Assembly (NCBI RefSeq): GCF_040712075.1
Contig: NZ_JBFCVL010000001.1
Coordinates: forward strand, 441,501 to 505,500
Direction of reading: 5' to 3'
Origin: Fodinicurvata sp. EGI_FJ10296
Lineage (GTDB): Bacteria; Pseudomonadota; Alphaproteobacteria; DSM-16000; Inquilinaceae
DNA: 64,000 bases
Part shown: one piece after another, positions 12,774 through 31,425 of the stretch
How positions within the stretch are numbered: position 1 is the first letter of the stretch
Layout: every line of letters starts with the position of its first letter
The notes under the pieces: generated by a model
Told to the model about the DNA's origin: nothing
Database searches by the model: none
Seen by the model: only the letters and a program-made list of their open reading frames with translations
Translations under genes and position numbers: made by a program

Positions 12774-13471
12774 GCGAGAAGGCCAGAGAATCGTCGGCGT
12801 CGGCCAGGGCCCAGATAATGGCCGGCATCCGGCGGTCGCATCTGCGCGGCCCGCTGGACAGTGCGGCCCGGGCGGCGATTGATGCGCGCCTCGCCCGCCA
12901 TCCTCGTGGGTTGCAGCCCGGACGCACGGATCTCGATCAGGCAGGCCTGATGCGTTTGTTCGAAGTCCAGGCGACCGAAGCCGCGGCGACTGTTCACCAT
13001 GTGGCGCATTGGGGCGATGTTGCCGCGGAAGTGGCCGGGTACTTGTCCAGCCTGAATCTGCCGGCGACGGTCAAGGTTGCGCCGGACCCGGACCTGGACG
13101 CTGCCGGCTGGCAGGACACGACCCTGACGGTCGAGCGCGGCCGCGGCGAAGAAACCGACGCCGTGGGTGTGACGGGTTGCTTCGCGGCCATCGCCGAAAC
13201 CGGCACGCTGATGATGCTGTCCGGTCCAGGACGGCCGACGACGCTGAACTTTCTGCCCGACACTCATATCGCCATTGTTGCCCGCGACCGGATCGTCGCC
13301 GGCTATGAAGATGGCTGGGATCGGATGCGGGCGGCCGGTGCGGTGCCGCGATCGGTCAACTTCATCACGGGTCCGTCGCGGACCGGCGATATCGAGCAGA
13401 AGCTGCAGATGGGGGCTCACGGACCCCGGCGTCTCCATATCATTGTCGTCGACACGCCCTCGCCATCCTGA
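12770..13471 (+). CDS. lutC: L-lactate oxidation complex subunit LutC (LUD domain)
   Basis: A 233-aa LUD-domain subunit and third gene of lutABC. The domain is recognised by VGVTGCFAAIAETGTLMMLSG, the phosphosugar-like loop TTLNFLPDTHIAIV and the terminal NFITGPSRTGDIEQKLQMG followed by HGPRRLHIIVVD, all near-invariant in LutC/YkgG. The start is ATG 12770, overlapping the lutB stop. A 168-bp gap without clear features follows before the Smr gene, and no terminator was found. Function within the complex is known only at the level of lactate growth. Confidence 0.94.
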   Translation: MSEKARESSASARAQIMAGIRRSHLRGPLDSAARAAIDARLARHPRGLQPGRTDLDQAGLMRLFEVQATEAAATVHHVAHWGDVAAEVAGYLSSLNLPATVKVAPDPDLDAAGWQDTTLTVERGRGEETDAVGVTGCFAAIAETGTLMMLSGPGRPTTLNFLPDTHIAIVARDRIVAGYEDGWDRMRAAGAVPRSVNFITGPSRTGDIEQKLQMGAHGPRRLHIIVVDTPSPS

Positions 13472-16415: not shown

Positions 16416-16871
16416 TCACTCCTGTGTATCGTCGCCGTTGGTGGTATCCTGACCGTCTTCGCTGCCGGTGGAGGAGGTCTCACTGTCGATCGCGACGTCC
16501 GTGCTGCCGCTGGAACCCTGATCACCCTCGCTGGTCTGATCGGTCCCCTGGTCTACCGTTCCGGACGATCCTTCGGACAGAATCTGATTGATCTCGCTGA
16601 GGTTCCCGACGGATGTCGACGAACTGTTATAGGTGTGATTCTCCACATACTGTTCGAGTGCGGCCTGTCCGTCCTCGTTCTGACGGTCGGCGTGTTGAAA
16701 TTGCGCCGCCAGACTGCGGTTCCGTTGCCTCGCACCATAGGGCGTCTTGCCCATCAGTTGTGCTTCGGCCGTCTGAACCGACAAGGGTCCCGCCCTGTCC
16801 TGGCTTTCCGTTGCAATGGTTATTGCGGCCAACGCGCAGAAGGTCGCCGGGATGAGGAAGATACGTTTCAT
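16416..16871 (-). CDS. Cassette 1 small exported protein (HfaA-like candidate)
   Basis: A 151-aa exported protein of a four-member family in this window. A signal peptide (MKRIFLIPATFCALAA) ends near AEAQ. The mature part has the shared core RNRSLAAQFQHA, then YVENHTYNSSSTSVGNLS and EINQILSEGSSGTVDQGTDQ, and a Ser/Thr/Asp-rich tail. Gln and Asn recur every few residues after Gly or Ser, loosely like curlin or HfaA repeats. Because it follows a CsgG-family pore gene and a larger exported protein, I infer a secreted fibre or anchor subunit. Direct homology to HfaA is not proven. ATG 16871 begins the signal peptide; it is last in its operon. Confidence 0.7.
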   Translation of the reverse strand: MKRIFLIPATFCALAAITIATESQDRAGPLSVQTAEAQLMGKTPYGARQRNRSLAAQFQHADRQNEDGQAALEQYVENHTYNSSSTSVGNLSEINQILSEGSSGTVDQGTDQTSEGDQGSSGSTDVAIDSETSSTGSEDGQDTTNGDDTQE

Positions 16872-16936
16872 GCTTGTGCTCCCTTGATGCGGCTTGAAGC
16901 TGGAGCCAGTGACCGCCGGATGAACCGATGGGCCGT

Positions 16937-16997
16937 GCGGGGCGGTTTTACCCACCCCGCAGGCCTCCCCCATCCGACGAAGCCGCTCATCGAATGG
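16937..16997 (-). ncRNA. Two-hairpin intergenic RNA module, cassette 1
   Basis: The message between the two exported-protein genes can form two stems. The first spans 16997-16970: CCAUUCGAUGA pairs with UCGUCGGAUGG around the loop GCGGCU, 11 bp including two G-U pairs. The second spans 16960-16937: GCGGGGUGG pairs with CCGCCCCGC, including one U-G pair. The wobbles pair only in minus-strand RNA. No U-run follows, so it looks like an mRNA stabiliser or attenuator rather than a terminator. Confidence 0.65.
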
Positions 16998-17008
16998 TGG
17001 ATCCGGTA

Positions 17009-18142
17009 TTATTCGACGTCGACGTCGCCATCGAAGACGTCGCCGGCGCTGACCGTGATCGACTTGTTGTTGCCGACCGCTGTCGCGGCGGAGTTGACGA
17101 TCGGTCCGTCGATCGCGCCGAGGTTCTCGTAGTTGTTCAGATAGATTTCGCTGACATCCGATGTGGCGGTGGTATCGGCGAAGCTGAACTGGACGGCATC
17201 GCCGATCAGCAGACGATCGGCACCCTGGCCTTCGACCTCGACGGTGAGGTTGTTGGAGACGGCCGTGGCCGAGCTGTCCACACTGGCGTTGTGGATGTTG
17301 TTGACCGTGGAATCCGCGTCGATGTCGGCGCTATCCAGCAGGCCAAGAATCGCGGCTGATCCCAGAGTGTTGGCGGCAACCAGATTGGAATTTCTGTCGT
17401 CATCGTCGCCGTTGACATCGTCGTCGACATCCGCCCACAGTTCGTCCCAATCGCCGTCGGCGCTCGAGCCGTTGCCGTCGCCGAAGGAGAACTGCCCTTC
17501 GTGCAACTGGACCGACGCGTCGGACTGAATGGCCGTGTTGTTGGCGACGGCAGTGGCCGTGCTGACGACTTCCGGCAGTTCGGTCGTTGCATCGAGCGGG
17601 TCCAGCGCGATCACGTCACCGACGTCGAACTGTGACAGGTCGACCGTGAATTCCAGGTCGCCCGATCCCGTGCAGGTGTCCGCGCTGGAGCCGTCTCCGC
17701 CTTCGGAACATCCGAAACTCACGGTGTTGGTGCCGTTGCGGAACACGACGCCATCCTCAACCACCTCCAAGGTGACTTCGCTGTCGATCGTCGAACCGTC
17801 CTGACCGAGATCCTCGTACATTGCCGAGTCGATATAGTCGACAAGGAACTGGATCTCGCCTTCAAGGTCGCCGTTGCCGGCAGGCTGGTTGTTGAAGACG
17901 TCGGTGACTGTCGACGTTGCGGTATGATCGCCGACGGAGACCTGCAGGTCTTCGACCATCACCATGCCTGACGGGTTGAAATCAGCGTTGACATCAATGG
18001 TCTTGGTAATGACCTCGTTGACTTCAGCGTTCCACTCCCAGTTCACTTCATCGAACGCGGAAGCAGGTGCGGCGGCGAGCGCCAGACCGATGGCGGTGGC
18101 CGAAGCGCCTGCGAGAATGCCGTGTTTGCTTACGAATCTCAT
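17009..18142 (-). CDS. Cassette 1 large exported ATAVxNN-repeat protein (HfaD-like candidate)
   Basis: A 377-aa exported protein. The signal peptide ends at APASA before FDEVNWEWNAEVNE. Three copies of a short motif are spread along the chain: STATAVANNTAI, SSATAVSNNLTV and SAATAVGNNKSI. A Cys pair (FGCSEGGDG...TCTG) is shared with the other copies and probably forms a disulfide outside the cytoplasm. The protein is very acidic. ATG 18142 is used, with GGAGAG upstream and 2 nt after the csgG stop, suggesting coupling. Together with CsgG and the small protein this resembles the HfaB/HfaD/HfaA holdfast-anchor set; homology to HfaD is inferred from context and repeat style only. Confidence 0.72.
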   Translation of the reverse strand: MRFVSKHGILAGASATAIGLALAAAPASAFDEVNWEWNAEVNEVITKTIDVNADFNPSGMVMVEDLQVSVGDHTATSTVTDVFNNQPAGNGDLEGEIQFLVDYIDSAMYEDLGQDGSTIDSEVTLEVVEDGVVFRNGTNTVSFGCSEGGDGSSADTCTGSGDLEFTVDLSQFDVGDVIALDPLDATTELPEVVSTATAVANNTAIQSDASVQLHEGQFSFGDGNGSSADGDWDELWADVDDDVNGDDDDRNSNLVAANTLGSAAILGLLDSADIDADSTVNNIHNASVDSSATAVSNNLTVEVEGQGADRLLIGDAVQFSFADTTATSDVSEIYLNNYENLGAIDGPIVNSAATAVGNNKSITVSAGDVFDGDVDVE

Positions 18143-18144
18143 TT

Positions 18145-18981
18145 TCAACTCTCCGGTGAACGGTTGCTGTCAAGGGTTTCCCCAAAGAACTCGGTCTCTG
18201 CCAGTTCGCATTCGGGACTGGACGGGAGGCCGAGGAAGTCCGTCATGATCTGATGGGTGGCCATCTCCACGACGGACCGCACGCCGAGTTGAAGCGGTTC
18301 GTTTTCGATGCGACCGGCATCGAACTCGACGAGCTGGTCTCCGAAGAAGCGGAAGACATTGGCTTCGACTTCGTATCCGGAAATCTGCTTCTGCAGGGTG
18401 GTCACATAGGGGACGTCGAAGGTGACGGGGTTCACGACCCGGAGGTCGAGGCCGACATTGATCACCACCGAGCGTCCGCCCAGACCGGCACCGCCGACGT
18501 AAAGTCCGGCGCCCTGGCTGACGATGTTGTAGTTGAGCTCTGTCAGGGCCCCGAGCACGACGAAGTTGGAAGGCCTGACGGTCGGCCCCTGAGGATAAGT
18601 CCGGGGCATGACCCCCTGGTTCACCATCTCGCGTTCGGCGAGCGGGATGCGCAGATCGAAGCGTTCGACGAGGCGCACTTTGCGGGTTCGCCACAGGGCG
18701 CTCATGACCATTTCGGTCACACCCTGGGTCATCACCATGCTGTCGCTCTCGGTGTCGCGCTGACCGGTCTTGTCCAGAATCTCTCCAACTGTAAAGGTCG
18801 GCACGTTGTCTCCCGGCAACTCGGCGAGCTGCGCCAGACATTCGGTATAGGGTGTATAGTTGTTGGTTACGGGAAATGTATAACTGGGCTCTATGCCGTT
18901 CTCTTGGGTTGTTGCCATTCCGGCGCATCCTGAGAGAACACTGGCGGAAAGTAATGAAGCGGCTATTGATCGTAAATCCAT
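18145..18981 (-). CDS. Cassette 1 CsgG-family outer-membrane lipoprotein (HfaB-like)
   Basis: A 278-aa CsgG-family protein, the length of E. coli CsgG. It has a lipoprotein signal with lipobox LSGC (Cys 19), then VPTFTVGEILDKTGQ, the family core VMTQGVTEMVMSALWR, VRLVERFDLRIPLAERE and FVVLGALTELNYNI. Next come the VNVGLDLRVVNP- and QISGYEVEANVFRFFG-type strands. CsgG proteins form nonameric outer-membrane channels that export unfolded subunits without energy; HfaB is the holdfast relative. It is first in the cassette, with its own promoter-like region upstream. From about codon 65 the DNA is nearly identical to the copies at 23.3 and 26.7 kb, while the 5' end has diverged. Confidence 0.9.
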   Translation of the reverse strand: MDLRSIAASLLSASVLSGCAGMATTQENGIEPSYTFPVTNNYTPYTECLAQLAELPGDNVPTFTVGEILDKTGQRDTESDSMVMTQGVTEMVMSALWRTRKVRLVERFDLRIPLAEREMVNQGVMPRTYPQGPTVRPSNFVVLGALTELNYNIVSQGAGLYVGGAGLGGRSVVINVGLDLRVVNPVTFDVPYVTTLQKQISGYEVEANVFRFFGDQLVEFDAGRIENEPLQLGVRSVVEMATHQIMTDFLGLPSSPECELAETEFFGETLDSNRSPES

Positions 18982-19188
18982 AATAACCTCTGTGCGGCTT
19001 CTTTCAACGAGGGATAATTTCTATGTCGTAATCGCACAGTATCAGCGATAATTTCATGAATACACGGAAAGATCGGGATATAACGGGCAGAATACGTAAT
19101 AGATCGTTACCCCGAACTGTGCAGAGGCCACATTTGCGCGACGGCGATCCTCACGATGCCCTAGTACGAAAGGACCTCGCGGTAGGGG
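18982..19188 (-). promoter_or_regulatory. Cassette 1 promoter and leader region
   Basis: Three blocks match the other cassettes. (1) The leader just before the start keeps GAAGCCGC (19001-18994) and an AGAGG ribosome site; CCUC (19012-19009) could pair with GAGG (18990-18987). (2) GCTGATACTGT (19046-19036, minus), 55 nt upstream, resembles an extended -10 box and aligns with equivalents at the other csgG starts. (3) CGAAAGGAC (19167-19175) with GGTAGGGG (19181-19188) about 200 nt upstream recurs before cassette 4. Regulator identity is unknown. Confidence 0.5.
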
Positions 19189-19302
19189 AAATCGCGTGGC
19201 CCGATGGCCGTGGACGCGCGCGTCCATCTCCGGACCGCAAACCACAGTCCGGAAGGTCGAAATGGCGCGAAGGGATGGGAGATCGGAGGAGGAGAAATGC
19301 CG

Positions 19303-19352
19303 ATGCCCCGGACGTCATGCGGATTGCGTATCCTGCATGACGTCCGGGGCAT
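19303..19352. repeat. Perfect 18-bp inverted repeat (extended hairpin) between cassettes 1 and 2
   Basis: ATGCCCCGGACGTCATGC (19303-19320) is followed after 14 nt by its exact reverse complement (19335-19352). The loop itself pairs GGAT with ATCC, giving a 22-bp stem with one bulged T. It lies about 110 bp past the stop of the cassette 2 small gene and is the likely transcript end there, but no proper U-run follows on either strand. Confidence 0.7.
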
Positions 19353-19464
19353 TGGGGTGCGGCTTTGCCGGCTCCGGGGCCTCAAGCGAGGTCAGTGACG
19401 CTCGGCGGCCGCAGGAGGGAGGATGAAGGGCGGGCAGCGCCAATCGCCAGTGCTGGTCGGCGTG

Positions 19465-19950
19465 CTAGTTGACGGTGTCGTTGCTATTGGTGTTGGTGGT
19501 GTTTTCGGCGCCATCGTTTTCGCTGGTTGTCGACGTGGTCTGACTGTCGATCACGACATCGGTCGTGCCCGACGATCCCTGATTGCCATCGTTGGTCTGG
19601 TCCGTCGTCTGACCGACCGACCCGGATGATCCGCCGGAGAGGATCTGATTGATCTCGCTGAGATTGCCGACCGAGTTCGATGTGCTGCTATAGGTGTGAT
19701 TATAGACGTACTGCTCGAATGACCCGGGGCGATTGGCCTCGGAAAGCTTTTCGGCGTGATCGAACTGGGCGGCCAGGCTGCGATTACGCGGACCCGGACT
19801 CCAGGGGTTTTTGCCCATCTGCTGGGCTTCGGCCGTCGACACCGACAGCAGCGCCGGCAGGACCCCCGCCCGCATATCCCCACCGTCCAGATCGACGGAA
19901 AGTGTCGCCGTCGCACAGACAATGGCGGGAATGGCGATCAGTCGGTACAT
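19465..19950 (-). CDS. Cassette 2 small exported protein (HfaA-like candidate)
   Basis: A 161-aa paralogue of the cassette 1 small protein, nearly identical to the cassette 3 copy. The N-terminus MYRLIAIPAIVCATATLSV is a signal peptide, with AEAQ near the cleavage site. The mature part has the shared RNRSLAAQFDHAEKL, EQYVYNHTYSSTSNSVGNLS and EINQILSGGSSGSVGQTTDQ. The tail is Asn/Thr-rich (ENTTNTNSNDTVN). ATG 19950 has AAGGAGA at good spacing; the ATG used as a possible earlier start in cassette 3 is ACG here, which supports this choice. It is the end of cassette 2; a long hairpin follows. Confidence 0.7.
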   Translation of the reverse strand: MYRLIAIPAIVCATATLSVDLDGGDMRAGVLPALLSVSTAEAQQMGKNPWSPGPRNRSLAAQFDHAEKLSEANRPGSFEQYVYNHTYSSTSNSVGNLSEINQILSGGSSGSVGQTTDQTNDGNQGSSGTTDVVIDSQTTSTTSENDGAENTTNTNSNDTVN

Positions 19951-20036
19951 TGTCGTTCTCCTTGAAAGGCTGGCGCCGGCGGTGTGGGAGCGGTTCGCGT
20001 GAAGGATGTCGCCTGTAATGCAGGGATCAGTCGTAC

Positions 20037-20096
20037 GGGGCGGGCCGACGCCCACCCCGCAGACCTTCTTCACCCGGCGAAGCCGCTCATCGAATG
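20037..20096 (-). ncRNA. Two-hairpin intergenic RNA module, cassette 2
   Basis: The equivalent of the cassette 1 module. The first stem spans 20096-20071 with loop GCGGCU and has one A-C mismatch here. The second spans 20058-20037: GGGGUGGGC pairs with GCCCGCCCC around GUCG, with the same U-G pair as elsewhere. The sequence around it is almost the same as in cassette 3, so it is not an independent observation. Confidence 0.6.
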
Positions 20097-20106
20097 TCGG
20101 ATCAGG

Positions 20107-21249
20107 TCACTCTTCAGTACCGTTTCCGTTGTCGAAGATGCCGCCGGCGCTGACGGTGATCGACTTGTTGTTGCCGACTGCGGTCGCGACAGAGTTGACG
20201 ATCGGGCGATCAATCAGGCCCAGGCCCTCGTAGTTGTTGAGGTAGACCTCGCTGACGGTCGACGTGGCAGTGGTGTCGGCGTAGCTGAACTGCACGACGT
20301 CGCCGATCAGCAGACGATCGGCACCCTGGCCTTCGAGTTCGACGGTCATGTTGTTGGCCACGGCCGTGGCCGTGCTGTCGACGGTGGCGTTGTGGATATT
20401 GTTGACCGTCGAATCCGCGGTGATGTTGGCTTTGTCCAGCAAGCCCAGGATCGCGGCCGATCCCAGCGTGCTGGCGGCAGCCAGATTGGAGTTCCAGTCG
20501 TCGTCTTCGCCGTTGACGACATCGTCGTCGAGTTCCGCCCACAGTTCGTCGAAATCACCGTTGAAGCTGGAACCGTTGCCGCCACCGAAGGCGAATTGCC
20601 CTTCATGCAGCTGGATCGAGGCGTCGGACTGAATGGCGGTGTTGTTGGCGACGGCCGTGGCCGTGCTGATGACTTCCGGCAGTTCGGTCGTTGCATCGAG
20701 CGGATCCAGCACGATCACGTCGCCCACGTCGAACTGCGACAGGTCGATGGTGAACTGGAAATTCCCCTGACCTTCACACGAGGTCGTGATCGCGCCGTCA
20801 CCGCCTTCGGAACAGCCGAAACTCACGGTGTTGGTGCCGTTGCGGAATACGATGCCATCCTCGACCACGGTCAGGGTGACTTCGCTGTCGATTATCGAGC
20901 CCTGTCCACCGCCGAGCAGCTCGTACTCAGCCGAGTCGATATAGTCGACCAGGAACTGGATCTCGCCTTCGAGGTCGCCGTTGCCGACAGGCTGATTGTT
21001 GAATACGTTGGTCACCGTCGACGTTGCGCTATGGTCGCCAATCGAGACCTGCAGGTCCTCAAGCATGATCATGCCCGTCGGCGTGAAGTCGGCATCGATG
21101 TCGATGGTCTTGGTGATGACCTCGTTGATTTCGGCATCCCACCGCCAGTCGACGTCGTCGAACGCGGCGGCCGGGGCGGCGATGAATGCAAGTCCAAGGG
21201 CTGCGGCGGAAACGCCGGCATACATGCCCCGCTTGTTGAATTTCTTCAT
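20107..21249 (-). CDS. Cassette 2 large exported ATAVxNN-repeat protein (HfaD-like candidate)
   Basis: A 380-aa paralogue, close to identical to the cassette 3 protein. A signal peptide ends near APAAA before FDDVDWRWDAEINE. The three motifs are STATAVANNTAI, STATAVANNMTV and SVATAVGNNKSI. The Cys pair is FGCSEGGDG and TTSCEG. A 30-residue acidic and aromatic stretch (FDELWAELDDDVVNGEDDD) lies in the middle. It directly follows a truncated csgG remnant, 3 nt away, so it has no intact pore gene of its own upstream. It must rely on read-through from cassette 3 or another promoter, and on pores encoded by the other cassettes. Confidence 0.72.
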   Translation of the reverse strand: MKKFNKRGMYAGVSAAALGLAFIAAPAAAFDDVDWRWDAEINEVITKTIDIDADFTPTGMIMLEDLQVSIGDHSATSTVTNVFNNQPVGNGDLEGEIQFLVDYIDSAEYELLGGGQGSIIDSEVTLTVVEDGIVFRNGTNTVSFGCSEGGDGAITTSCEGQGNFQFTIDLSQFDVGDVIVLDPLDATTELPEVISTATAVANNTAIQSDASIQLHEGQFAFGGGNGSSFNGDFDELWAELDDDVVNGEDDDWNSNLAAASTLGSAAILGLLDKANITADSTVNNIHNATVDSTATAVANNMTVELEGQGADRLLIGDVVQFSYADTTATSTVSEVYLNNYEGLGLIDRPIVNSVATAVGNNKSITVSAGGIFDNGNGTEE

Positions 21250-21252
21250 GAC

Positions 21253-21450
21253 TCAGCTCTCCAGTGAACGATTGTTATCAAGAGTCGCAGCGAAGAACCT
21301 CTCCGCCAGTTCACATTCGGGACTGGACGGGAGGCCGAGGAAGTCCGTCATGATCTGATGGGTGGCCATCTCCACGACGGACCGCACGCCGAGTTGAAGC
21401 GGTTCGTTCTCGATGCGACCGGCATCGAACTCGACGGGTTGGTCTCCCGA
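21253..21450 (-). pseudogene. Truncated csgG remnant of cassette 2
   Basis: Read on the minus strand, about 65 codons match the csgG C-terminus: VEFDAGRIENEPLQLGVR, EMATHQIMTDFLGLP, then SSPECELAERFFAATLDNN and a stop. Homology to the intact copies breaks off abruptly near 21450, at the GDQ of FFGDQLVEF, and unrelated sequence follows for 55 bp to the cassette 3 small gene. No start, signal peptide or channel part remains. The 3' frame is still open, so the loss looks like one deletion or a duplication breakpoint, not decay. Confidence 0.85.
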
Positions 21451-21504
21451 TTGCGCGACGGGCGCTTCTCATGACGAAAGAACCCCGCAGCGCGCCCCCG
21501 AGAG

Positions 21505-21981
21505 CTAGTCGACGGTGTCGCCGCCATCGACGTTGGCGCTCGTGTTTTCGGCGCCACCGTTCTCGCTTGCTGTCGACGTGGTCTGGCTGTCGATCACGAC
21601 ATCGGTCGTGCCCGTCGAGTCCTGATCGCCGCTACTGGTCTGATCCGTGCCCTGATCAACCGTGCCGGTCGATCCGCCGGAGAGGATCTGATTGATCTCG
21701 CTGAGATTGCCGACCGAGTTCGATGTGCTGCTATAGGTGTGGTTGTAGACATACTGCTCGAACGACCCGGGGCGGTTGGCCTCGGCCAGCTTTTCGGCGT
21801 GATCGAACTGGGCGGCCAGGCTGCGATTGCGCGGACCCGGACTCCAGGGGCTTTTGCCCATCTGCTGGGCCTCGGCCGTCTGCACCGACAGGATTCCCGA
21901 CCGCATCTCCCCGGTCTGGAAATCGATGGAAAGTGTCGCCGTCGCGCAGACAATGGCGGGAATGGCGATCAGTCGGTACAT
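21505..21981 (-). CDS. Cassette 3 small exported protein (HfaA-like candidate)
   Basis: A 158-aa exported paralogue. The signal peptide starts MYRLIAIPAIVCATATLSI and processing is expected near AEAQ. The shared core RNRSLAAQFDHAEKLAE, EQYVYNHTYSSTSNSVGN and QILSGGSTGTVDQGTDQ is present, with a Ser/Thr/Asp tail. Of two in-frame ATGs (21987, 21981) the second is chosen because AAGGAGA is too close to the first. It differs from the cassette 2 protein mainly in the signal region and the last 40 residues. After its stop only 55 bp separate it from the csgG remnant, so transcription could run on into cassette 2. Confidence 0.7.
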   Translation of the reverse strand: MYRLIAIPAIVCATATLSIDFQTGEMRSGILSVQTAEAQQMGKSPWSPGPRNRSLAAQFDHAEKLAEANRPGSFEQYVYNHTYSSTSNSVGNLSEINQILSGGSTGTVDQGTDQTSSGDQDSTGTTDVVIDSQTTSTASENGGAENTSANVDGGDTVD

Positions 21982-22067
21982 GGTCATTCTCCTTGAAAGG
22001 CTGGCGCCGGCGGCGTGGGAGCGGATCGCGTGAAGGATGTCGCCTGTAATGCAGGGATCAGTCGTAC

Positions 22068-22127
22068 GGGGCGGGCCGACGCCCACCCCGCAGACCTCCT
22101 TCACCCGACGAAGCCGCTCGTCGAATG
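22068..22127 (-). ncRNA. Two-hairpin intergenic RNA module, cassette 3
   Basis: The first stem spans 22127-22102: CAUUCGACGA pairs with UCGUCGGGUG around GCGGCU, 10 bp. The C-G pair here replaces a U-G pair of cassette 1, a pairing-preserving change. The second stem spans 22089-22068 with GGGGUGGGC and GCCCGCCCC. Both lie between the large and small genes. Confidence 0.65.
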
Positions 22128-22137
22128 TCGGAACGGG

Positions 22138-23289
22138 TTAATCGACAAAACCGTTTCCGTCGTTGTCTCCGTTGTCGTCAAAGATGCCGCCGACGCTGAC
22201 AGTAATCGCCTTGTTGTTGCCAACCGCAGTCGCGACGGAATTGACGATCGGGCGATCGATCAGACCCAGGCCCTCGTAGTTGTTGAGGTAGACCTGGCTG
22301 ACATCCGACATCGCGTCGGTGTCGGCGTAGCTGAACTGCACGACGTCGCCGATCAGCAGACGATCGGCACCCTGGCCTTCGAGTTCGACGGTCATGTTGT
22401 TGACCACCGCCGTTGCCGTGCTGTCGACCGTGGCGTTGTGGATGTTGTTGACTGTCGAATCCGCGGTGATGTTGGCGCTTTCCAGCAGGCCGAGGATCGC
22501 GGCCGATCCCAACGTGCTGGCGGCGGAAAGATTGGAATTCCAGTCGTCGTCTTCGCCGTCGACGACATCGTCGTCGAGTTCCACCCACAGTTCGTCGAAC
22601 TCACCGTTGAAGCTTGAGCCATTGCCACCGCCGATTGCAAACTGCCCTTCATGCAGCTGGATCGAGGCGTCGGACTGAATGGCGGTGTTGTTGGCGACGG
22701 CCGTGGCCGTGCTGATGACTTCCGGCAGTTCGGTCGTTGCGTCGAGCGGATCCAGCACGATCACGTCGCCTACGTCGAATTGCGACAGGTCGATCGTGAA
22801 TTCCAGGTCGCCCGATCCCGTGCAGCTGGTCACAAAGGAACCATCTCCGCCTTCGGAACAGCCGAAACTCACCGTGTTGGTGCCGTTGCGGAATACGATG
22901 CCATCCTCGACCACGGTCAGGGTCACGTCGCTGTCGATTGTCGAGCCCTGTCCACTCCCGAGCAGCTCGTACTCAGCCGAGTCGATATAGTCGACCAGGA
23001 ACTGGATCTCGCCTTCAACGTCGCCGTTGCCGACAGGCTGATTGTTGAAGATATCGGTCACTGTCGACGTAGCGGAATGGTCGCCGATCGAGACCTGCAG
23101 GTCTTCAAGCATGATCATGCCCGTTGGCGTGAAGTCGGCATCGATGTCGATGGTCTTGGTGATGACCTCGTTGATTTCGGCATCCCACCGCCAGTCGACA
23201 TCGTCGAACGCGGCGGCCGGGGCGGCGATGAATGCGAGAGCGGCGGCGGACGCGCCGGCATACATGCTCAGCTTGTTGAATTTCTTCAT
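22138..23289 (-). CDS. Cassette 3 large exported ATAVxNN-repeat protein (HfaD-like candidate)
   Basis: A 383-aa exported protein with a signal peptide ending near APAAA and the mature start FDDVDWRWDAEINE. It has the three ATAVxNN motifs (STATAVANNTAI, STATAVVNNMTV, SVATAVGNNKAI) and the Cys pair FGCSEGGDG and TSCTG. Between the motifs are long stretches of alternating hydrophobic and small polar residues, compatible with beta structure. It starts 3 nt after the intact csgG of the same cassette. The last ~15 residues (FDDNGDNDGNGFVD) differ from the cassette 2 protein, where the two genes are otherwise almost the same. Confidence 0.72.
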   Translation of the reverse strand: MKKFNKLSMYAGASAAALAFIAAPAAAFDDVDWRWDAEINEVITKTIDIDADFTPTGMIMLEDLQVSIGDHSATSTVTDIFNNQPVGNGDVEGEIQFLVDYIDSAEYELLGSGQGSTIDSDVTLTVVEDGIVFRNGTNTVSFGCSEGGDGSFVTSCTGSGDLEFTIDLSQFDVGDVIVLDPLDATTELPEVISTATAVANNTAIQSDASIQLHEGQFAIGGGNGSSFNGEFDELWVELDDDVVDGEDDDWNSNLSAASTLGSAAILGLLESANITADSTVNNIHNATVDSTATAVVNNMTVELEGQGADRLLIGDVVQFSYADTDAMSDVSQVYLNNYEGLGLIDRPIVNSVATAVGNNKAITVSVGGIFDDNGDNDGNGFVD

Positions 23290-23292
23290 GAT

Positions 23293-24129
23293 TCAGCTCT
23301 CCAGTGAACGATTGTTTTCAAGAGTCGCAGTGAAGAACTCGGTCTCGGCCAGTTCGCATTCGGGACTGGACGGGAGGCCGAGGAAGTCCGTCATGATCTG
23401 ATGGACAGCCATCTCCACGACGGACCGCACGCCGAGTTGAAGCGGTTCGTTTTCGATGCGACCGGCATCGAACTCGACGAGCTGGTCTCCGAAGAAGCGG
23501 AAGACGTTGGCTTCGACTTCGTATCCGGAAATCTGCTTCTGCAGGGTGGTCACATAGGGGACGTCGAAGGTGACGGGGTTCACGACCCGGAGGTCCAGGC
23601 CGACATTGATCACCACCGAGCGTCCGCCCAGACCGGCGCCGCCGACGTAAAGTCCGGCGCCCTGGCTGACGATGTTGTAGTTGAGCTCTGTCAGGGCCCC
23701 GAGCACGACGAAGTTCGACGGCCGAACGTTGGGATTCTGCGGACCGGCCCGCTGCATGAGACCCTGGGCGACCATCTCGCGTTCGGCGAGCGGGATGCGC
23801 AGGTCGAAGCGTTCGACGAGGCGCGCCTTTCGGGTCCGCCAGAGGGCGCTCATGACCATCTCGGTCACGCCCTGGGTCATCACCATGCCGTCGCTTTCAG
23901 GGTCGCGCTGGCCGGTCTTGTCCAGGATTTCCCCGACCGTAAAGGTCGGTATGTTAGTGCCAGGCAACTGAGCGAGTTGAGCCAGACATTCAGTATATGG
24001 AGTATAGTTGTTCGTTACAGGGTATGTGAAGCTCGGCTCGACGCCGTTCTGCTGCGTAGTTGCTACCCCGGCGCAGCCTGAAACCAGAAAAATAGTCAGT
24101 AATTGTGGGGCAATTAATTGTAATTTCAT
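23293..24129 (-). CDS. Cassette 3 CsgG-family outer-membrane lipoprotein (HfaB-like)
   Basis: A 278-aa CsgG-family lipoprotein with lipobox VSGC (Cys 19) and the same channel-domain motifs as cassette 1: VMTQGVTEMVMSALWR, RFDLRIPLAERE, FVVLGALTELNYNI and the QKQISGYEVEANVFRFFG strand. It differs from the other two intact copies around residues 115-125 (AQGLMQRAGPQNPNVRPS versus NQG..PRTYPQGPTVRPS). The first ~35 codons are unusually AT-rich for this genome and differ in DNA sequence from the other copies, while the 3' two thirds are nearly identical. It is the first gene of a run that may extend through cassette 2. Confidence 0.9.
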   Translation of the reverse strand: MKLQLIAPQLLTIFLVSGCAGVATTQQNGVEPSFTYPVTNNYTPYTECLAQLAQLPGTNIPTFTVGEILDKTGQRDPESDGMVMTQGVTEMVMSALWRTRKARLVERFDLRIPLAEREMVAQGLMQRAGPQNPNVRPSNFVVLGALTELNYNIVSQGAGLYVGGAGLGGRSVVINVGLDLRVVNPVTFDVPYVTTLQKQISGYEVEANVFRFFGDQLVEFDAGRIENEPLQLGVRSVVEMAVHQIMTDFLGLPSSPECELAETEFFTATLENNRSLES

Positions 24130-24190
24130 GATACCCTCTGCGCGGCTTCTTATAACAAGGGCGAAATATCAATCCGTGCAAGAACGGTAC
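24130..24190 (-). promoter_or_regulatory. Cassette 3 promoter and leader region
   Basis: The leader keeps GAAGCCGC (24149-24142) and the AGAGGG ribosome site. GTACCGTT (24190-24183), 54 nt upstream, aligns with the GTACTGTT block of cassette 4. CCCUU upstream could pair with GAGGG over the ribosome site. The distal CGAAAGGAC/GGTAGGGG block of cassettes 1 and 4 was not found here. From 24191 to 24480 I see no gene. Confidence 0.45.
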
Positions 24191-24480
24191 GAAAATTGTA
24201 CTCGCGATTACACTGAGAGTTCGGCCACGCAGAATGGCATTGGGAATAGCGTCCTACCTCACCCTGTGGATCACACCACGTTGTCGCCGCGGCTATGATC
24301 AGCATGTTCTAGTTCAATGGTATTTGTCGGCGGGGGAAACGCGCGCATTCGGATGGATCGGGGAGCGCGGAACGACGAATTGCGCCGTGCGTGTGACGCA
24401 GGCGCTGTCGTCAGAAGCCCCGGTTCGGTCCCGGGCGCCGTGCCGGAAGGTCCCGGCCTCTCACGGGGCTGCTTGCGGGG

Positions 24481-24954
24481 CTACTTCGGGCCGCCGGTTG
24501 CCAGCACAGTCAGCCGTGCCTTGAGAAAAGCGGCATGCAGCGGCTTTTCCCAGAATTCCACTGCCCATGCGCTAGTGGCGCGGGCCATGCGATCAGCGGC
24601 AGCGAGCCGGGATGGGGTGTCGCCGGGGGCAATGATCACCAATCGGATCACTGAGCCCGCGGCCGCAAGCCCCGGCAGTATCTCGGGCGATTCGATTTCG
24701 GGCCGATGCATGTCGACGATGACGGACCGGGGCTGCAGATCGGTGGCCACGCGCGGGAGATGCCGACAATCCGGTAAGCCAACGATCGTGGCGCCAATGG
24801 TGTCGCCGACCGCCGCGACATAGTCGAAAAAATGCGTATTGTTGTTGACCAGAACAATCGGCGGGGGCGAAAGGCCGGGCGATGGAGACCGCAGCGCGGC
24901 GACCTGGCCGCGTGCTTTCCGCCGCCCGTCGTCCTCAGTCAGTGCCAGCGTCAT
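24481..24954 (-). CDS. Stand-alone receiver-like (CheY-fold) protein
   Basis: A 157-aa protein with a single receiver-like domain and no output domain. After a charged N-terminus, PPIVLVNNNTHFFDYVAAVG stands for the first strand, with Asn where the acidic pocket normally is. SVIVDMHRPEIESPEILPGL carries the candidate phospho-acceptor Asp, VIRLVIIAPGDTPS the switch position, and FWEKPLHAAFLKARL the conserved Lys-Pro. The start (24954; or 24960) overlaps the end of the cassette 4 small gene by about 20 nt, so it is likely translated with cassette 4. No kinase gene adjoins it. It could tune the cassette or a neighbouring two-component pathway. Confidence 0.65.
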   Translation of the reverse strand: MTLALTEDDGRRKARGQVAALRSPSPGLSPPPIVLVNNNTHFFDYVAAVGDTIGATIVGLPDCRHLPRVATDLQPRSVIVDMHRPEIESPEILPGLAAAGSVIRLVIIAPGDTPSRLAAADRMARATSAWAVEFWEKPLHAAFLKARLTVLATGGPK

Positions 24955-25423
24955 CTTCATCGACGTCGGGGCTGGTATTTGATGCCGCGCTGCTGGATCC
25001 GGTTGTTTCGCTGTCGACTGCTACCTGTGTGTTTGCTGCCGATCCCTGATTTCCCTGACTGTCCTGATCGGTGGTCTGCTGAACCGTACCGGTCGAGCCG
25101 TCGGAAAGGATCTGGCTGATCTCGTTCAGATTGCCGATCGAGGTCGACGAACTGTTATAGGTGTACGTCTCTACAAATTGTTCCAGGGCGCCCATGCCGC
25201 TGCCGCCGCCATTGCCGTTGATGCTGCTTTGGCGCTCGGCGTGCTGGAACTGTGCGGCGAGGCTGCGGTTGCGGGGTGTTGCACTCCAGGGCTGTTTGCC
25301 CATCTGCTGTGCGTGCGCTTCCTGCATGGCGAAGGGCGACGGTATATCCAGCCCGGTGGCGCCGGCCTCCAACAGGAAGAACCCCGAGACGGTGCCGCAT
25401 AGTATCAAGGCCGTACGTTTCAT
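24935..25423 (-). CDS. Cassette 4 small exported protein (HfaA-like candidate)
   Basis: A 162-aa exported paralogue, more diverged than cassettes 2 and 3. A signal peptide (MKRTALILCGTVSGFFLLEA) is followed by an extra 15 residues to HAQQMGKQPWSATP. The core RNRSLAAQFQHAERQ is kept. A Gly/Asn insert (NGNGGGSGMG) precedes ALEQFVETYTYNSSSTSIGN and EISQILSDGSTGTVQQTTDQ. The tail is Ser/Thr/Asp-rich. ATG 25423 opens the signal peptide, and its 3' end overlaps the receiver-like gene. Role as for the other small proteins: probably a CsgG-exported subunit, by context. Confidence 0.7.
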   Translation of the reverse strand: MKRTALILCGTVSGFFLLEAGATGLDIPSPFAMQEAHAQQMGKQPWSATPRNRSLAAQFQHAERQSSINGNGGGSGMGALEQFVETYTYNSSSTSIGNLNEISQILSDGSTGTVQQTTDQDSQGNQGSAANTQVAVDSETTGSSSAASNTSPDVDEDDAGTD

Positions 25424-25521
25424 GATCGTGTCTCCTGGCCGTTCGGCAATCATGGCCAAAGGCGCTCGTATGCGGTTGGCTGTCCGTTCGATGAACGCTG
25501 TCTGGCGTTAAACGTTGGCCA

Positions 25522-25587
25522 TGCGGGGCGGGTCTCCCCACCCCGCAGGCCTGCCGCCACCCGATAAAGCCGCTCATCCGGTGGCGG
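25522..25587 (-). ncRNA. Two-hairpin intergenic RNA module, cassette 4
   Basis: The first stem uses CCGCCACC (25587-25580) and GGUGGCGG (25560-25553) on the minus strand, enclosing GAGCGGCUUUAUC with the same GCGGC loop as the other copies but a different outer helix. The second stem spans 25545-25522: GCGGGGUGGG pairs with CCCGCCCCGC around GAGA, again with the U-G pair. Keeping the fold while the sequence changes favours a functional RNA structure. Confidence 0.65.
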
Positions 25588-25600
25588 ACCTCGTTCCGGC

Positions 25601-26710
25601 TCAGTCGTCGATGGACGGTACGGAGACGGTGATGGACTTGTTGTTGCCGACAGCCGTGGCGACCGAGTTGGCGATCGGGCGGCCGAGTTCACCGAGGTTG
25701 GTGTAGCTGTTCAGGTAAACACCGCGGACATCCGACAAGGCGTTGGTGTTGGCGTAGGAGAACTGAACCACGTCGCCGATGAGCAGGCGGTCATCGCCTT
25801 CCGCCGCGACATCCACCGTCAGGTTGTTGACGACCGCGGTGGCGGTGCTGTCGACCGTCGCATTGTGGATATTACCAACCTGGGAGTCGGCATCGATTTC
25901 GGCTTGCTCAAGGATGCCGAGGATCGCGGCCGTGCCGAGTCCAGCGGCGACGACCAGGTTCGAGTTCACCCCGCTGTTCGCCAGATCGGCGGCAACACCA
26001 TAGCTGGCGAGAGCGGCGATGGCGCCTTCGAGACTGTCGACATTGCCGTCACCAAAGGCGAACTGGCCTTCATGCAACTGCACCGACGTGTCGGTTTCGA
26101 TCGCCGTGTTGTTGGCGACCGCCGTGGCGGCACTGATGACTTCCGGCAGCTCGGTCAGCGAGTCGAAGGAGTCGAGCGGGATCATGTCGCCGATGTCGAA
26201 CTGTGACAGGTCGATGGTGATGCCCAGGGAGTTGAGCTGTGTCTCACAGCCGCTGACACCGATTCCATCGTCATCGCAATCAAGTGTGGCCGTTGTGCCG
26301 TCGGTCGCGGTGAATTTGACACCAGCATCCGTCAGTTCGAGCATCACGCCGCCTTCGGCACTCGCCAGGACTCCCGCGATACCTTCGAACTCGCCAAACG
26401 CCTGCCAGTCGACCATGATCTCGATCTCGCCTGGATCGAAGCCGTCGCTGGGCTGGTAATTGAAGATGTCGTTGACGTTGGACCGCGCCGTTTGGTCGCC
26501 GATCGACACCTGGAGGTCTTCCAGCATGGTCATGCCGGTCGGGTCCAGATCGATATTGATATCGACAACCTTGGTGATGTCTTCGTCGATATGGGCGTCC
26601 CAGGTCCAGTTCACTTCGTTGAACGCGGAGGCCGGAGCGGCGATCAGTGCCAGACCCAGGGCGGCGGCGGAAACGCCGGCATACAGACCCACTTTTTTGG
26701 AAATAATCAT
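25601..26710 (-). CDS. Cassette 4 large exported ATAVxNN-repeat protein (HfaD-like candidate)
   Basis: A 369-aa exported protein, the most diverged large copy. The signal peptide ends near APASA before FNEVNWTWDAHIDE. Motifs are SAATAVANNTAI, STATAVVNNLTV and SVATAVGNNKSI. The middle differs: the acidic loop of the others is replaced by GAIAALASYGVAADLANSG, and the Cys pair occurs as LDCDDDG and SGCETQ. IDLSQFDIGDMIPLDSFDSL matches the other copies' DLSQFDVGDVI block, so the overall layout is kept. ATG 26710 follows the csgG stop by 3 nt. The strong sequence difference against a near-identical upstream csgG suggests one pore type serves different passengers. Confidence 0.72.
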   Translation of the reverse strand: MIISKKVGLYAGVSAAALGLALIAAPASAFNEVNWTWDAHIDEDITKVVDINIDLDPTGMTMLEDLQVSIGDQTARSNVNDIFNYQPSDGFDPGEIEIMVDWQAFGEFEGIAGVLASAEGGVMLELTDAGVKFTATDGTTATLDCDDDGIGVSGCETQLNSLGITIDLSQFDIGDMIPLDSFDSLTELPEVISAATAVANNTAIETDTSVQLHEGQFAFGDGNVDSLEGAIAALASYGVAADLANSGVNSNLVVAAGLGTAAILGILEQAEIDADSQVGNIHNATVDSTATAVVNNLTVDVAAEGDDRLLIGDVVQFSYANTNALSDVRGVYLNSYTNLGELGRPIANSVATAVGNNKSITVSVPSIDD

Positions 26711-26713
26711 TGG

Positions 26714-27550
26714 TTAGCTCTCCCGAGTACGATTGCGATTGAGGGTGGCCGTGAAGAACTCGGTCTCTGCCAGTTCGCATTCGGGACTGGACGGGAGGCC
26801 GAGGAAGTCCGTCATGATCTGATGGGTGGCCATCTCCACGACGGACCGCACGCCGAGTTGAAGCGGTTCGTTTTCGATGCGACCGGCATCGAACTCGACG
26901 AGTTGGTCTCCGAAGAAGCGGAAGACGTTGGCTTCCACTTCGTATCCGGAAATCTGTTTCTGCAGGGTGGTCACATAGGGGACGTCGAAGGTGACGGGGT
27001 TCACGACCCGGAGGTCGAGGCCGACATTGATCACCACCGAGCGTCCGCCCAGACCGGCGCCGCCGACGTAAAGTCCGGCGCCCTGGCTGACGATGTTGTA
27101 GTTGAGCTCTGTCAGGGCCCCGAGCACGACGAAGTTGGAAGGTCTGACGGTCGGGCCCTGAGGATAAGTCCGGGGCATGAGGCCCTGGTTCACCATCTCG
27201 CGTTCGGCGAGCGGGATGCGCAGATCGAAGCGTTCGACGAGGCGCACCTTGCCGGTTCGCCACAGGGCGCTCATGACCATCTCGGTCACACCCTGGGTCA
27301 TCACCATGCTGTCGCTCTCGGTGTCGCGCTGACCCGTCTTGTCCAGGATCTCTCCAACCGTAAAGGTCGGCACGTTGTCTCCCGGCAGCTCGGCGAGCTG
27401 CGACAGACATTGCGTATATGGCGTATAATTAGAAGTAACGGGATATGAAAAGCTTGGTTCAAAGCCGTTATCTTGAGTCGAAGCTACACCGGCGCATCCG
27501 GAAAGAAGCGTAGCCGATAGCAACGACACGGAAATGAATTTCGTGTTCAT
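26714..27550 (-). CDS. Cassette 4 CsgG-family outer-membrane lipoprotein (HfaB-like)
   Basis: A 278-aa CsgG-family lipoprotein with lipobox LSGC (Cys 19). The motifs VMTQGVTEMVMSALWR, RFDLRIPLAERE, FVVLGALTELNYNI, SVVINVGLDLRVVNP and QISGYEVEANVFRFFG are as in the other copies. Its DNA is nearly the same as cassette 1 csgG from about codon 65 to the stop, including PRTYPQGPTVRPS, whereas the first 60 codons are AT-rich and distinct. It opens the whole minus-strand array and faces a 720-bp region shared with a divergent LuxR-type gene. The product should sit in the outer membrane as a multimeric peptide channel. Confidence 0.9.
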   Translation of the reverse strand: MNTKFISVSLLSATLLSGCAGVASTQDNGFEPSFSYPVTSNYTPYTQCLSQLAELPGDNVPTFTVGEILDKTGQRDTESDSMVMTQGVTEMVMSALWRTGKVRLVERFDLRIPLAEREMVNQGLMPRTYPQGPTVRPSNFVVLGALTELNYNIVSQGAGLYVGGAGLGGRSVVINVGLDLRVVNPVTFDVPYVTTLQKQISGYEVEANVFRFFGDQLVEFDAGRIENEPLQLGVRSVVEMATHQIMTDFLGLPSSPECELAETEFFTATLNRNRTRES

Positions 27551-28968: not shown

Positions 28969-29742
28969 TCAGCGCCGGGATGGCGATCGATCCGACATCC
29001 CGTTGCCTGAAAATCCGTTTCCGGGGACTCCGTGTCCCGAGACTCCGTGATTAAGGCCCCAGATCGCTGCCTGGGTGCGGTTGCGCGCCTTGATCTTGCG
29101 CAACAGGCTCTTCAGATGAACCTTTACCGTGCCCTCTGCGACGTCCAGCTTTCGGGCGATCGATTTGTTCGATTGGCCCTCAATCAGCCCGTGCAGGATT
29201 TCTGTTTCCCGCCGGGATAGCGTTTGCCCCAGTGGGTCCTCCCGGAGCGTGTCGAAGGCTTGCCGTGGGAATAGCGGGGCATCCGGCGCCTGATCGAGAG
29301 TCTCGGTGGCATCGGCGTCCAGGCCGGTGCTGACGAGGATGCTGGCGAGTTCGCTTGGGAACACCATTTCCCCCGTTTCCATCAGCAGCAGCGAATGTAG
29401 CAACGCATCAGGTGAAATGTCTTTGAGAAGATAGCCGCGAACGCCGCTGCGAAGGGCATCAGCCAGAGCATGAGGATCGACGGTATTCGCCAGCGCGACG
29501 ATCCGCAGCCTCGGGGCATTCCGCACAATGGAAGAAACGGCATCCGACAGGGCCGGATCGACCCTCGCCCATTCGATCAGCAGAAAATCAGGATGTCGGC
29601 CTGCTTCTTCCCCCCTCAGAGAAAATCCCGTTAAATCCGCGGATTCCGCGACTACCGAGAATGGCCCCGACTCAAACAGTCGTTTGAGTCCTTCTCGAAA
29701 CAATCGGCTGGGGTCGACTATATGGACACTGAACTGCTGCAT
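28969..29742 (-). CDS. LuxR-family response-regulator-like protein, Asp-to-Glu receiver
   Basis: A 257-aa protein with an N-terminal receiver and C-terminal LuxR helix-turn-helix. The first strand reads VHIVDPSRLFREGLKRLF. The usual phospho-acceptor region reads PDFLLIEWARVDP, with Glu 57 in place of Asp. The switch Lys is kept in RGYLLKDISPDALLHSL. The DNA-binding part has LSRRETEILHGLIEGQSN, then KSIARKLDVAEGTVKVHLK and KIKARNRTQAAIW, all typical. Glu can mimic phospho-Asp, so it may act independently of a kinase. It ends in a Gly/Ser tail with GVSGHGVPGNG-like repeats. It converges on the neighbouring LuxR-type gene and diverges from a small exported-protein gene. Confidence 0.88.
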   Translation of the reverse strand: MQQFSVHIVDPSRLFREGLKRLFESGPFSVVAESADLTGFSLRGEEAGRHPDFLLIEWARVDPALSDAVSSIVRNAPRLRIVALANTVDPHALADALRSGVRGYLLKDISPDALLHSLLLMETGEMVFPSELASILVSTGLDADATETLDQAPDAPLFPRQAFDTLREDPLGQTLSRRETEILHGLIEGQSNKSIARKLDVAEGTVKVHLKSLLRKIKARNRTQAAIWGLNHGVSGHGVPGNGFSGNGMSDRSPSRR

Positions 29743-30190: not shown

Positions 30191-30703
30191 ATGAAGAAAC
30201 TTGCGCTAATTCTCGGGTCGGCCCTGATCGCAGCTTTGCCGGCGGGCGAAACCCTTGCACAGTGGAACAACGCGCCGTATGGGGCCGGTGCCGGGACGTC
30301 TAGCTTCTCGATGAGCAATGCCCACCGCCAGGTCATACTGGACGAGCGCGCCGGTACCTTGCCATCGGGTCAGGTCTATCGCGACCGCACCGGCAATCTG
30401 CTGGTTATCGAGCGGGGGGATGACAATCAGGCGATCGTGCGTGATCGTGCCGGCGTCGAAGTTCGGATCCCGCGGGGCCGGACGTGGCAGGGTCGCGGTT
30501 TCGGTTATGGGGGCCGTGACAGCAGCGGGTTCCGGTCCAGGTCATCGATCGGCGGAGGCCTGATCTTCTCCAGCTACGTGGCGTCCACCGATGTCGGGAA
30601 CGCGTCGCTTGACATGTCCCAGATGCGTTCGGGGTCGTCATGGCAACCCGGCGTTTCGTCGGTTGCCATCTGGACGGAACAACTGGCGGCCATGGCCAAC
30701 TAG
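30191..30703 (+). CDS. Small exported protein with one curlin-like motif
   Basis: A 170-aa protein with a clear signal peptide (MKKLALILGSALIAALPAGE, cleavage near LAQ). The mature part starts QWNNAPYGAGAGTSSFSMS. The stretch VYRDRTGNLLVIERGDDN followed by QAIVRD contains GxxNxAxV spacing, the core of a curlin repeat, once. An Arg/Gly/Ser-rich middle (GRGFGYGGRDSSGFRSRSS) precedes a C-terminus of IFSSYVASTDVGNASLDMS. No family was recognised. It is flanked on both sides by LuxR-type regulators pointing away from and towards it, which links it to the same regulatory unit as the CsgG array. It could be a fibre subunit or nucleator, or a periplasmic accessory protein. Confidence 0.6.
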   Translation: MKKLALILGSALIAALPAGETLAQWNNAPYGAGAGTSSFSMSNAHRQVILDERAGTLPSGQVYRDRTGNLLVIERGDDNQAIVRDRAGVEVRIPRGRTWQGRGFGYGGRDSSGFRSRSSIGGGLIFSSYVASTDVGNASLDMSQMRSGSSWQPGVSSVAIWTEQLAAMAN

Positions 30704-30735: not shown

Positions 30736-31425
30736 TCAGCGCAGATCGTGCTCCAGGGCGGTGGCCATGCCGTGATTCATTGCCCAGATGGCTGCCTGCG
30801 TACGATTGGCGGCTTTGATCTTTCGCAGCAGCGCCTTGAGATGGACCTTCACCGTGCCCTCGGCGAGGTTGAGGTTGCTGGCGATGACCTTGTTGGGCTG
30901 TCCCTGAACGAGACAGTGCAGAATCTGCATTTCCCTGTCGGACAAGCCGTATTGCCGGACATCGGCCATCTCGATGTCCGGTCCATTTTGTTTGACCGTT
31001 GCGATCAGATAGGCTGCCAACTCGGTCGGAAATACGACCTCTCCCGTCCTGACCAGCATCAGTGACTGAATCAGCGCTTCGGGCGACATGTCACGCAACA
31101 GAAAGGCGTGGACACCCGTCCGCAAGGCGCTGATCAGCGCTTCGGAATTCATCTGGTCGCTCAATGCGACGATGCGCAACGCGCCGTGCTTTTTCAGCAA
31201 ATCAATTTCTGCAAAGAAATCCGGATCGCCCGGAAGCCACTCCACGAGCACGAAGGCCTCATGGGCGCTGGTATCCTGGAGGCTGGGCAGAAGGTCCGAG
31301 AGCGTCCGCGCTTCGCTGAGGATTCTGAATGGTGTCGCTTCGAAAAGCCGGCGCATGCCCTCCCTGAAAAGGCGGCTCCGGTCAACGAGAATGATGCCTG
31401 GTCCTGACATTTCGATGCCCCTCAT
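30736..31425 (-). CDS. LuxR-family response-regulator-like protein, Glu for Asp and Arg for Lys
   Basis: A 229-aa paralogue of the regulator at 29 kb. The receiver begins GIILVDRSRLFREGMRRLF. The phospho-acceptor region AFVLVEWLPGDPDF has Glu 62 instead of Asp, and the switch Lys is Arg in HAFLLRDMSPEALIQSL. Its output is a canonical LuxR domain: LSDREMQILHCLVQGQPN, then KVIASNLNLAEGTVKVHLK and KIKAANRTQAAIWAM. Loss of both key residues argues for a phosphorylation-independent regulator, as reported for some biofilm LuxR regulators. A CtrA-type box lies 22 bp upstream of its start. The downstream neighbour converges on it with a 32-bp gap. Confidence 0.88.
   Translation of the reverse strand: MRGIEMSGPGIILVDRSRLFREGMRRLFEATPFRILSEARTLSDLLPSLQDTSAHEAFVLVEWLPGDPDFFAEIDLLKKHGALRIVALSDQMNSEALISALRTGVHAFLLRDMSPEALIQSLMLVRTGEVVFPTELAAYLIATVKQNGPDIEMADVRQYGLSDREMQILHCLVQGQPNKVIASNLNLAEGTVKVHLKALLRKIKAANRTQAAIWAMNHGMATALEHDLR

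Follow-up and report, generated by a model that had tools for sequence, protein, structure and literature searches.

A fourfold array of CsgG-family pores and exported protein pairs in Fodinicurvata sp. EGI_FJ10296, a probable relative of the Caulobacter holdfast anchor

The window analysed here, a stretch of 64,000 nucleotides from Fodinicurvata sp. EGI_FJ10296 (contig NZ_JBFCVL010000001.1, hereafter C1, positions 441,501 to 505,500), carries on its minus strand, between positions 16416 and 27550, four tandem units in which a gene for a pore lipoprotein of the CsgG family is followed by genes for a large and a small exported protein. We consider it probable, at roughly 0.7, that the products of this array make up a system for export through a CsgG pore and for surface attachment, akin to the holdfast anchor HfaABD of Caulobacter but lying outside its curated family. 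The reading draws on a shared plan, in which a CsgG-family lipoprotein pore goes together with two exported proteins, one larger and one small, and on the remote homology of all three parts.

Organisation of the array

The coordinates, strand, gene order and copy number of the array had been proposed by a sequence-only reading, and all of them held on re-examination. Along the minus strand the units follow one another as D, C, B and A. Unit D comprises a pore of 278 residues (26714-27550; Pfam CsgG E 1.3e-27; lipobox LLSGCAG by eye), a large protein with HfaD-like repeats (25601-26710), placed by a family hidden Markov model (HMM) and by hhalign comparison of that family with HfaD, and a small HfaA-like protein (24935-25459) from a family whose HMM matches HfaA. 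The same two HMM families take in the large and small proteins of the other units. In unit C, the pore (278 residues, 23293-24129; Pfam CsgG E 6.6e-27) is followed by a large protein (22138-23289), of which an AlphaFold2 model is considered below, and by a small one (21505-22104), which probably begins at the internal ATG at 21981. Unit B retains of its pore only the last 65 codons (214-278), lying at about 21253-21447 with no start codon and recognised by local alignment to the intact pores; its large (20107-21249) and small (19465-20073) genes are intact. Unit A has a pore of 278 residues (18145-18981; CsgG match at C1:459738-460298), a large protein (17009-18148) and a small one (16416-16973). 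Thus three intact pores are present, as had been claimed: Pfam CsgG matches all three in a genome search, two of them also by hmmscan, and each carries, by eye, a lipobox LSGC or VSGC.

The distance between the small gene of unit C and the pore remnant of unit B is 57 bases, in which no promoter-like match was found, and an inverted repeat of 21 bp (95% complementary, 19300-19355) lies after unit B, between units B and A. Hence, units C and B probably form one transcript, with the inverted repeat perhaps as its end. In the whole genome, the Pfam CsgG search returns five pores, and profile searches return six large and six small genes. The additional members belong to two further units on the same contig, both complete: one at C1:90-92 kb, about 365 kb off, and one at 317-320 kb, about 140 kb off (loci L049 and L050 designate these dispersed units). 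A LuxR regulator lies upstream of either one.

Kinship with HfaABD

The sequence-only reading had taken the exported proteins for substrates of the HfaD and HfaA type. This stands as remote homology detected by profiles and HMMs, stronger for the large protein than for the small one, and does not extend to membership in the curated HfaD and HfaA families. Over 118 columns, hhalign aligned the large family to HfaD with a probability of 94, an E-value of 1.3e-7 and a score of 58.2; among 29 decoy families no score exceeded 17.6. The common part consists of a repeat of ATAxGN type followed by a Q-rich strand. The comparison outscored all of 60 column shuffles, except one artefact of 4 aligned columns.

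For the small family, the profile comparison with HfaA gave a score of 27.9, the decoys reaching at most 16.9 with small and 20.6 with HfaA. When the small HMM was run on hfa loci, its eleven best matches, from nine genomes, were all HfaA genes (E 4.7e-13 to 0.009; the E-values of the large and small HMM searches refer to a search space limited to the open frames of the fetched loci). Eight of these nine genomes belong to the nine in which an HfaA exceeds the curated cut-off; in the ninth, G209, HfaA is recognised only by the HMM built in the present analysis. It has to be considered that the small HMM used in this search had absorbed at least one protein of family 'd', which is described below. 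The reference loci derive from the 15 of 289 genomes of the class in which the curated HfaB model scores over its cut-off.

Several results weigh against this kinship. The five pores of this genome stay well under the 300-bit cut-off of the HfaB equivalog NF037935: the genome search gives them 140.7-153.6 bits, and hmmscan 151.2 and 154.8 bits for two of them. No protein of the genome exceeds the cut-off of the HfaA model NF037934, which matches one of 42 members of the small family, at E 0.025 and below its cut-off, and none of 36 large proteins, including the four of the window, is matched by the HfaD model NF037936 at E 0.1. The match between large and HfaD spans the repeat part only, the N-terminal half of the large protein being without counterpart, and that between small and HfaA, with a probability of only 22, is weak by itself. 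Among the HfaA proteins, the one that the curated model matches best, from G291, is not recovered by the small HMM. When fewer HfaA and HfaD sequences were used, the matches were weaker (probability 62 for large-HfaD and 9 for small-HfaA). Moreover, three of 120 column-shuffled profiles scored above 130; on being rerun, these three aligned 2-5 columns at a gapped end and were treated as artefacts, the other listed shuffles scoring 14.2 or less. Finally, the AlphaFold model of the small protein is poor, with a predicted local distance difference test score (pLDDT) of 50, and unsuitable for a fold search.

The array also differs from the Caulobacter system in its architecture. The order there is hfaA-hfaB-hfaD, as seen in locus L096, whereas here it is pore-large-small, that is, B-D-A; the array is multi-copy and accompanied by a divergent fourth exported protein and by LuxR regulators. 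Searches of curated families assign the cargo to no family: none of the 36 large proteins falls in any Pfam family, NCBIfam giving scattered single matches only, and likewise no small protein is placed over an accepted cut-off (42 by NCBIfam, the four window copies by Pfam).

Curli-like and Fap-like fibres as an alternative

The large and small proteins could instead be amyloid subunits building fibres by themselves, as in curli or Fap, with no anchoring of polysaccharide, a possibility that we regard as rather unlikely. With curli (csgBAC-csgDEFG) the array has in common the CsgG pore family, a LuxR-type regulator near the locus and a small cargo rich in Gln and Asn, and repeats rich in these residues would suit a fibre. 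It differs from curli in that its genome has no match to CsgE, CsgF or the curlin repeat (PF07012) and in the eyelet residues of the pore. The lack of CsgE and CsgF, which had been read from the window, holds genome-wide at the sensitivity of Pfam, in a search that did not include CsgC and CsgH. It is no strong objection to a fibre, since both proteins are reported to be missing from roughly half of the curli genera in the Alphaproteobacteria (PMC3521004), where some genomes are also described as having up to six CsgA/B homologues, often in additional curlin operons.

The modelled structure of the large protein points, although faintly, in the same direction. The AlphaFold2 model of the unit C protein reaches a pLDDT of at least 90 at 109 of 356 residues and contains confident long beta strands in the repeat region. 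Its best match in the PDB is FapC (E 0.015) and the third is a CsgA fibril (E 0.42), neither of them significant: Foldseek returned 55 matches at E 10 or below and none at 0.001 or below, and the best VIA score, again to FapC, is a non-significant Z of 3.4. The resemblance to Fap is thus limited to the large model, and the pore of the Fap system is FapF, a protein other than CsgG. A sequence search of solved structures left the large protein without match and gave only chance-like matches for the small one.

A relationship with curlin itself was rejected, the large and small profiles scoring 11.5 and 11.9, no better than decoys. Likewise, the small protein was considered as CsgF-like, its N-terminal aromatic motif recalling CsgF, and set aside on a profile score of 8.6 in what is a weak test, with two CsgF sequences.

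A further point against the fibre comes from genome G110, which holds a CsgG-CsgF curli locus and a pore-large-small unit 41 kb apart, hence as separate systems. Similarly, G054 has such a unit plus an HfaB-like gene (233.7 bits, below the HfaB cut-off). Given that the unit stands beside one of the other two systems in each of these genomes, it is neither curli nor Hfa under another name.

Distribution among relatives

With HMMs built from the window, 43 related loci were examined, almost all of them with an alphaproteobacterial label, and 40 hold a single unit in the order pore-large-small; of the other three, two are truncated where the stretch ends, and in L024 no large gene was detected. 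Therefore, this is an alphaproteobacterial gene set that is expanded in the present genome, and the claim that known CsgG loci have one copy agrees with these counts. The set is patchy across the class. The large family appears in 9 of 385 genomes drawn from it, including that of the window, the other eight having a single open frame each; no more than five candidates were scored per genome (five of the six large genes of the window's genome are shown), so that further copies elsewhere may have escaped notice. Any CsgG match occurs in 23 of 116 relatives, the window's genome counted, and in one of the 16 listed members of its own family, where it adjoins CsgF and curlin genes. More than one CsgG match is present in 14 of the 43 genomes, most of the extra ones scoring like curli or far lower; in G339 and G329 a second match falls within the score range of the unit pores. 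With these two excepted, the expansion is seen only in the present genome within these samples. No multi-copy CsgG or HfaB array, and no pore-large-small gene set, is named in the titles and abstract openings of the literature searched.

The five own pores group together as one clade in the pore tree (100/100), and HfaB makes up a separate one (99/95); when curli is taken as outgroup, HfaB falls inside the unit pores (96/99), a placement that hangs on the very long curli branch. A more far-reaching proposal can be made only tentatively: the pore-large-small set might be a third, unnamed CsgG-dependent secretion branch in Alphaproteobacteria and a possible source of the Caulobacter holdfast anchor, expanded here to a repertoire in which gene conversion would keep the pores alike even across hundreds of kb, so that any pore could export the diverging cargo of any unit, unit B included.

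Evolution of pores and cargo

Between array pores, synonymous divergence (dS) over codons 120-265 is 0.08-0.17, against 0.54-1.14 for the large genes in these pairs. In comparisons of array with dispersed units, the corresponding values are 0.35-0.51 for the pore body and 0.91-1.28 for the large genes. Runs of 125-126 bp are identical between the dispersed unit at 91 kb, whose pore lies some 370 kb away, and array pores D and A. Taking into account that selection at the protein level is unlikely to give near-identity at synonymous sites, the pore bodies have likely been homogenised by gene conversion while their cargo diverged. The beginning of the pore gene behaves otherwise: over the first 60 codons synonymous sites are saturated or nearly so in the array pores (dS 1.4 to infinite), and nonsynonymous divergence (dN) is 0.19-0.41 over ten pairs. 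It was also observed that the first 180 bases of pores D, C, A and those of L049 and L050 have a G+C content of 0.47-0.53, and the rest 0.60-0.63, as if they lay outside the conversion tract.

These data bear on the idea that the extra copies are a neutral or dosage amplification, that is, recent tandem duplicates kept alike by recombination and not diversified in function. The loss of one pore and the closeness of the large genes of units C and B (dS 0.29) would fit it, but we consider it improbable, as the large gene of D differs from those of C, B and A by a dS of 1.00-1.14 with frames still open and a dN/dS of about 0.3, both dispersed units are intact too, and the strongly diverged N-terminal codons of the pores contrast with their homogenised bodies. 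The cargo of unit B shows constraint when compared with that of C (dN/dS 0.19 for large and 0.42 for small), part of which may predate the loss of the pore. The relative ages of the units can also be approached. Unit D and the two dispersed units have a receiver-like gene downstream of small, a gene missing from C, B and A; D would accordingly be the older unit, with C, B and A as later tandem copies.

The pore and its gate

The assignment of the array pores to the CsgG family, proposed from the sequence alone, is borne out by Pfam, whose CsgG cut-off they pass, and by the alignment of the unit C pore with the solved CsgG of Escherichia coli over residues 43-248 (E 2e-14). The sequence-only reading had counted a lack of channel-forming residues as a sign against its interpretation. 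In CsgG, the eyelet is formed by Tyr51, Asn55 and Phe56, as described in PMC6957492, and these residues are not conserved, the unit C pore having Glu, Asp and a gap at these positions (mature numbering inferred). The loop reads DKTGQRDxESDxMVxTQG in all five own pores; many relatives have DKTGQINYDENGHALTQG or similar, and seven of nine HfaB proteins DYTGKEEFEGGRKVTQG or similar, the pattern having failed on the other two. As far as the CsgG residues go, this sign against the earlier reading is thus present, but the HfaB loops that were read differ from CsgG too. Since the alignment with CsgG holds through residues 43-248 while the eyelet residues are replaced, the channel fold is likely conserved and the gate, as judged from this alignment, differs from the CsgG gate. 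That these proteins are not export pores at all, and the large and small proteins ordinary periplasmic ones, is very improbable: the exchanged eyelet residues and the many paralogues that Pfam CsgG takes in (PMC3521004) would allow it, but the alignment with solved CsgG, the linkage to HfaA/HfaD-like cargo and the HfaB loops, which deviate as well, argue against it.

N-terminal motifs and the fourth exported protein

A fourth exported protein, of a family designated 'd', is encoded divergently on the plus strand (30191-30703) and matches proteins near related pores (phmmer E 1e-11 and weaker). Members of this family are present in 35 of the 43 related loci, seven of them being of a weaker subgroup that the iterated search brought in, and 34 of the 35 genes lie on the 5' side of the pore and on the opposite strand. 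The mature starts of family 'd' (QxNNxPFxF) and of the small proteins (QQMGxxPWxF) look alike, and the large proteins have FDxVDWxW. One decoy family scored 33.7 against profile d, matching the 31.6 of small, so that the link between small and d is left to the HMM searches, whose later rounds mixed both families. It should be noted that the large proteins were trimmed at a pattern demanding F or DGS, by which the invariance of F1 is partly forced, and that of W6 and W8 is not; the alignments leave out 5 of 41 trimmed large proteins (A1) and 3 of 45 small ones (A2). The curli pore is bound by short segments at the N-termini of CsgA and CsgF (PMC6957492), and by this analogy the aromatic motifs would be the first candidates for a pore address.

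Neighbouring genes and RNA element

The LuxR regulators reported near the array were found again as two minus-strand LuxR/GerE genes with a degenerate receiver that scores under the cut-off, at 28969-29742 (GerE E 2.2e-20) and 30736-31425 (GerE E 1.5e-20). By eye, both have Glu at the position of the usual phosphate-accepting aspartate, Asp being present in 15 of 37 aligned rows. Relatives of these regulators occur somewhere in 36 of the 43 stretches. The last gene of unit D (24481-24960, minus) encodes the receiver-like protein mentioned above, with weak, sub-threshold receiver matches; its homologues 3' of the small gene in both dispersed units (L049 10633-11328; L050 5873-6439) are recognised by phmmer with E 1.2e-32 and 3.7e-22.

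Between large and small, a predicted RNA double hairpin lies in all six units: in the array on the minus strand at 25470-25600 (D), 22015-22137 (C), 19985-20106 (B) and 16885-17008 (A), and in the dispersed units at L049 10116-10240 and L050 7005-7136. Changes on both sides in at least one of the six units affect 7 of 30 predicted pairs; this covariation comes from six sequences, two of them near-identical, with a covariation term of only -1.13. As no T-run follows, the hairpin is not a plain terminator, and one might guess that it tunes the ratio of the two products.

Other observations concern the surroundings of related pores. In locus L014, an exported protein with Sel1 repeats is encoded at 12514-13395, and its relatives, a cluster from 12 loci, lie mostly just downstream of the unit. 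Loci L104 (G054) and L105 (G181) contain HfaB-like pores with an apparent extra C-terminal domain, OmpA-like by eye; a small exported protein of a different kind is encoded ahead of them, and in L104 an open frame of 1176 residues is found further on.

Proposed mode of action

For the attachment system that we favour, the following sequence of events can be proposed. A nearby LuxR regulator would switch a unit on, and the pore, large and small proteins would cross the inner membrane by Sec, as suggested by signal peptides and lipoboxes that were read directly from the sequence. By homology with CsgG, the pore lipoprotein would form a ring in the outer membrane, through which the large and small proteins would pass unfolded, perhaps guided by their mature N-terminal motifs, to fold outside into stacks of beta strands. 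In Caulobacter, the surface location of HfaA and HfaD depends on HfaB (PMC6707917). By analogy with HfaD and HfaA, the large protein would act as a membrane-side scaffold and the small one as the polymerising part, and cells might thereby be held to a surface or to their own matrix. As their bodies seem to be kept nearly identical by gene conversion, the pores would probably be exchangeable, and the pore-less unit B could therefore be served by its neighbours.

Significance

If the array is what we propose, holdfast-type sets of pore plus cargo would also exist in another gene order and outside the curated HfaABD family. Moreover, with several near-identical pores, several cargo pairs that have diverged and one such pair lacking its own pore, this genome would offer a natural test of how CsgG-type pores recognise their cargo.

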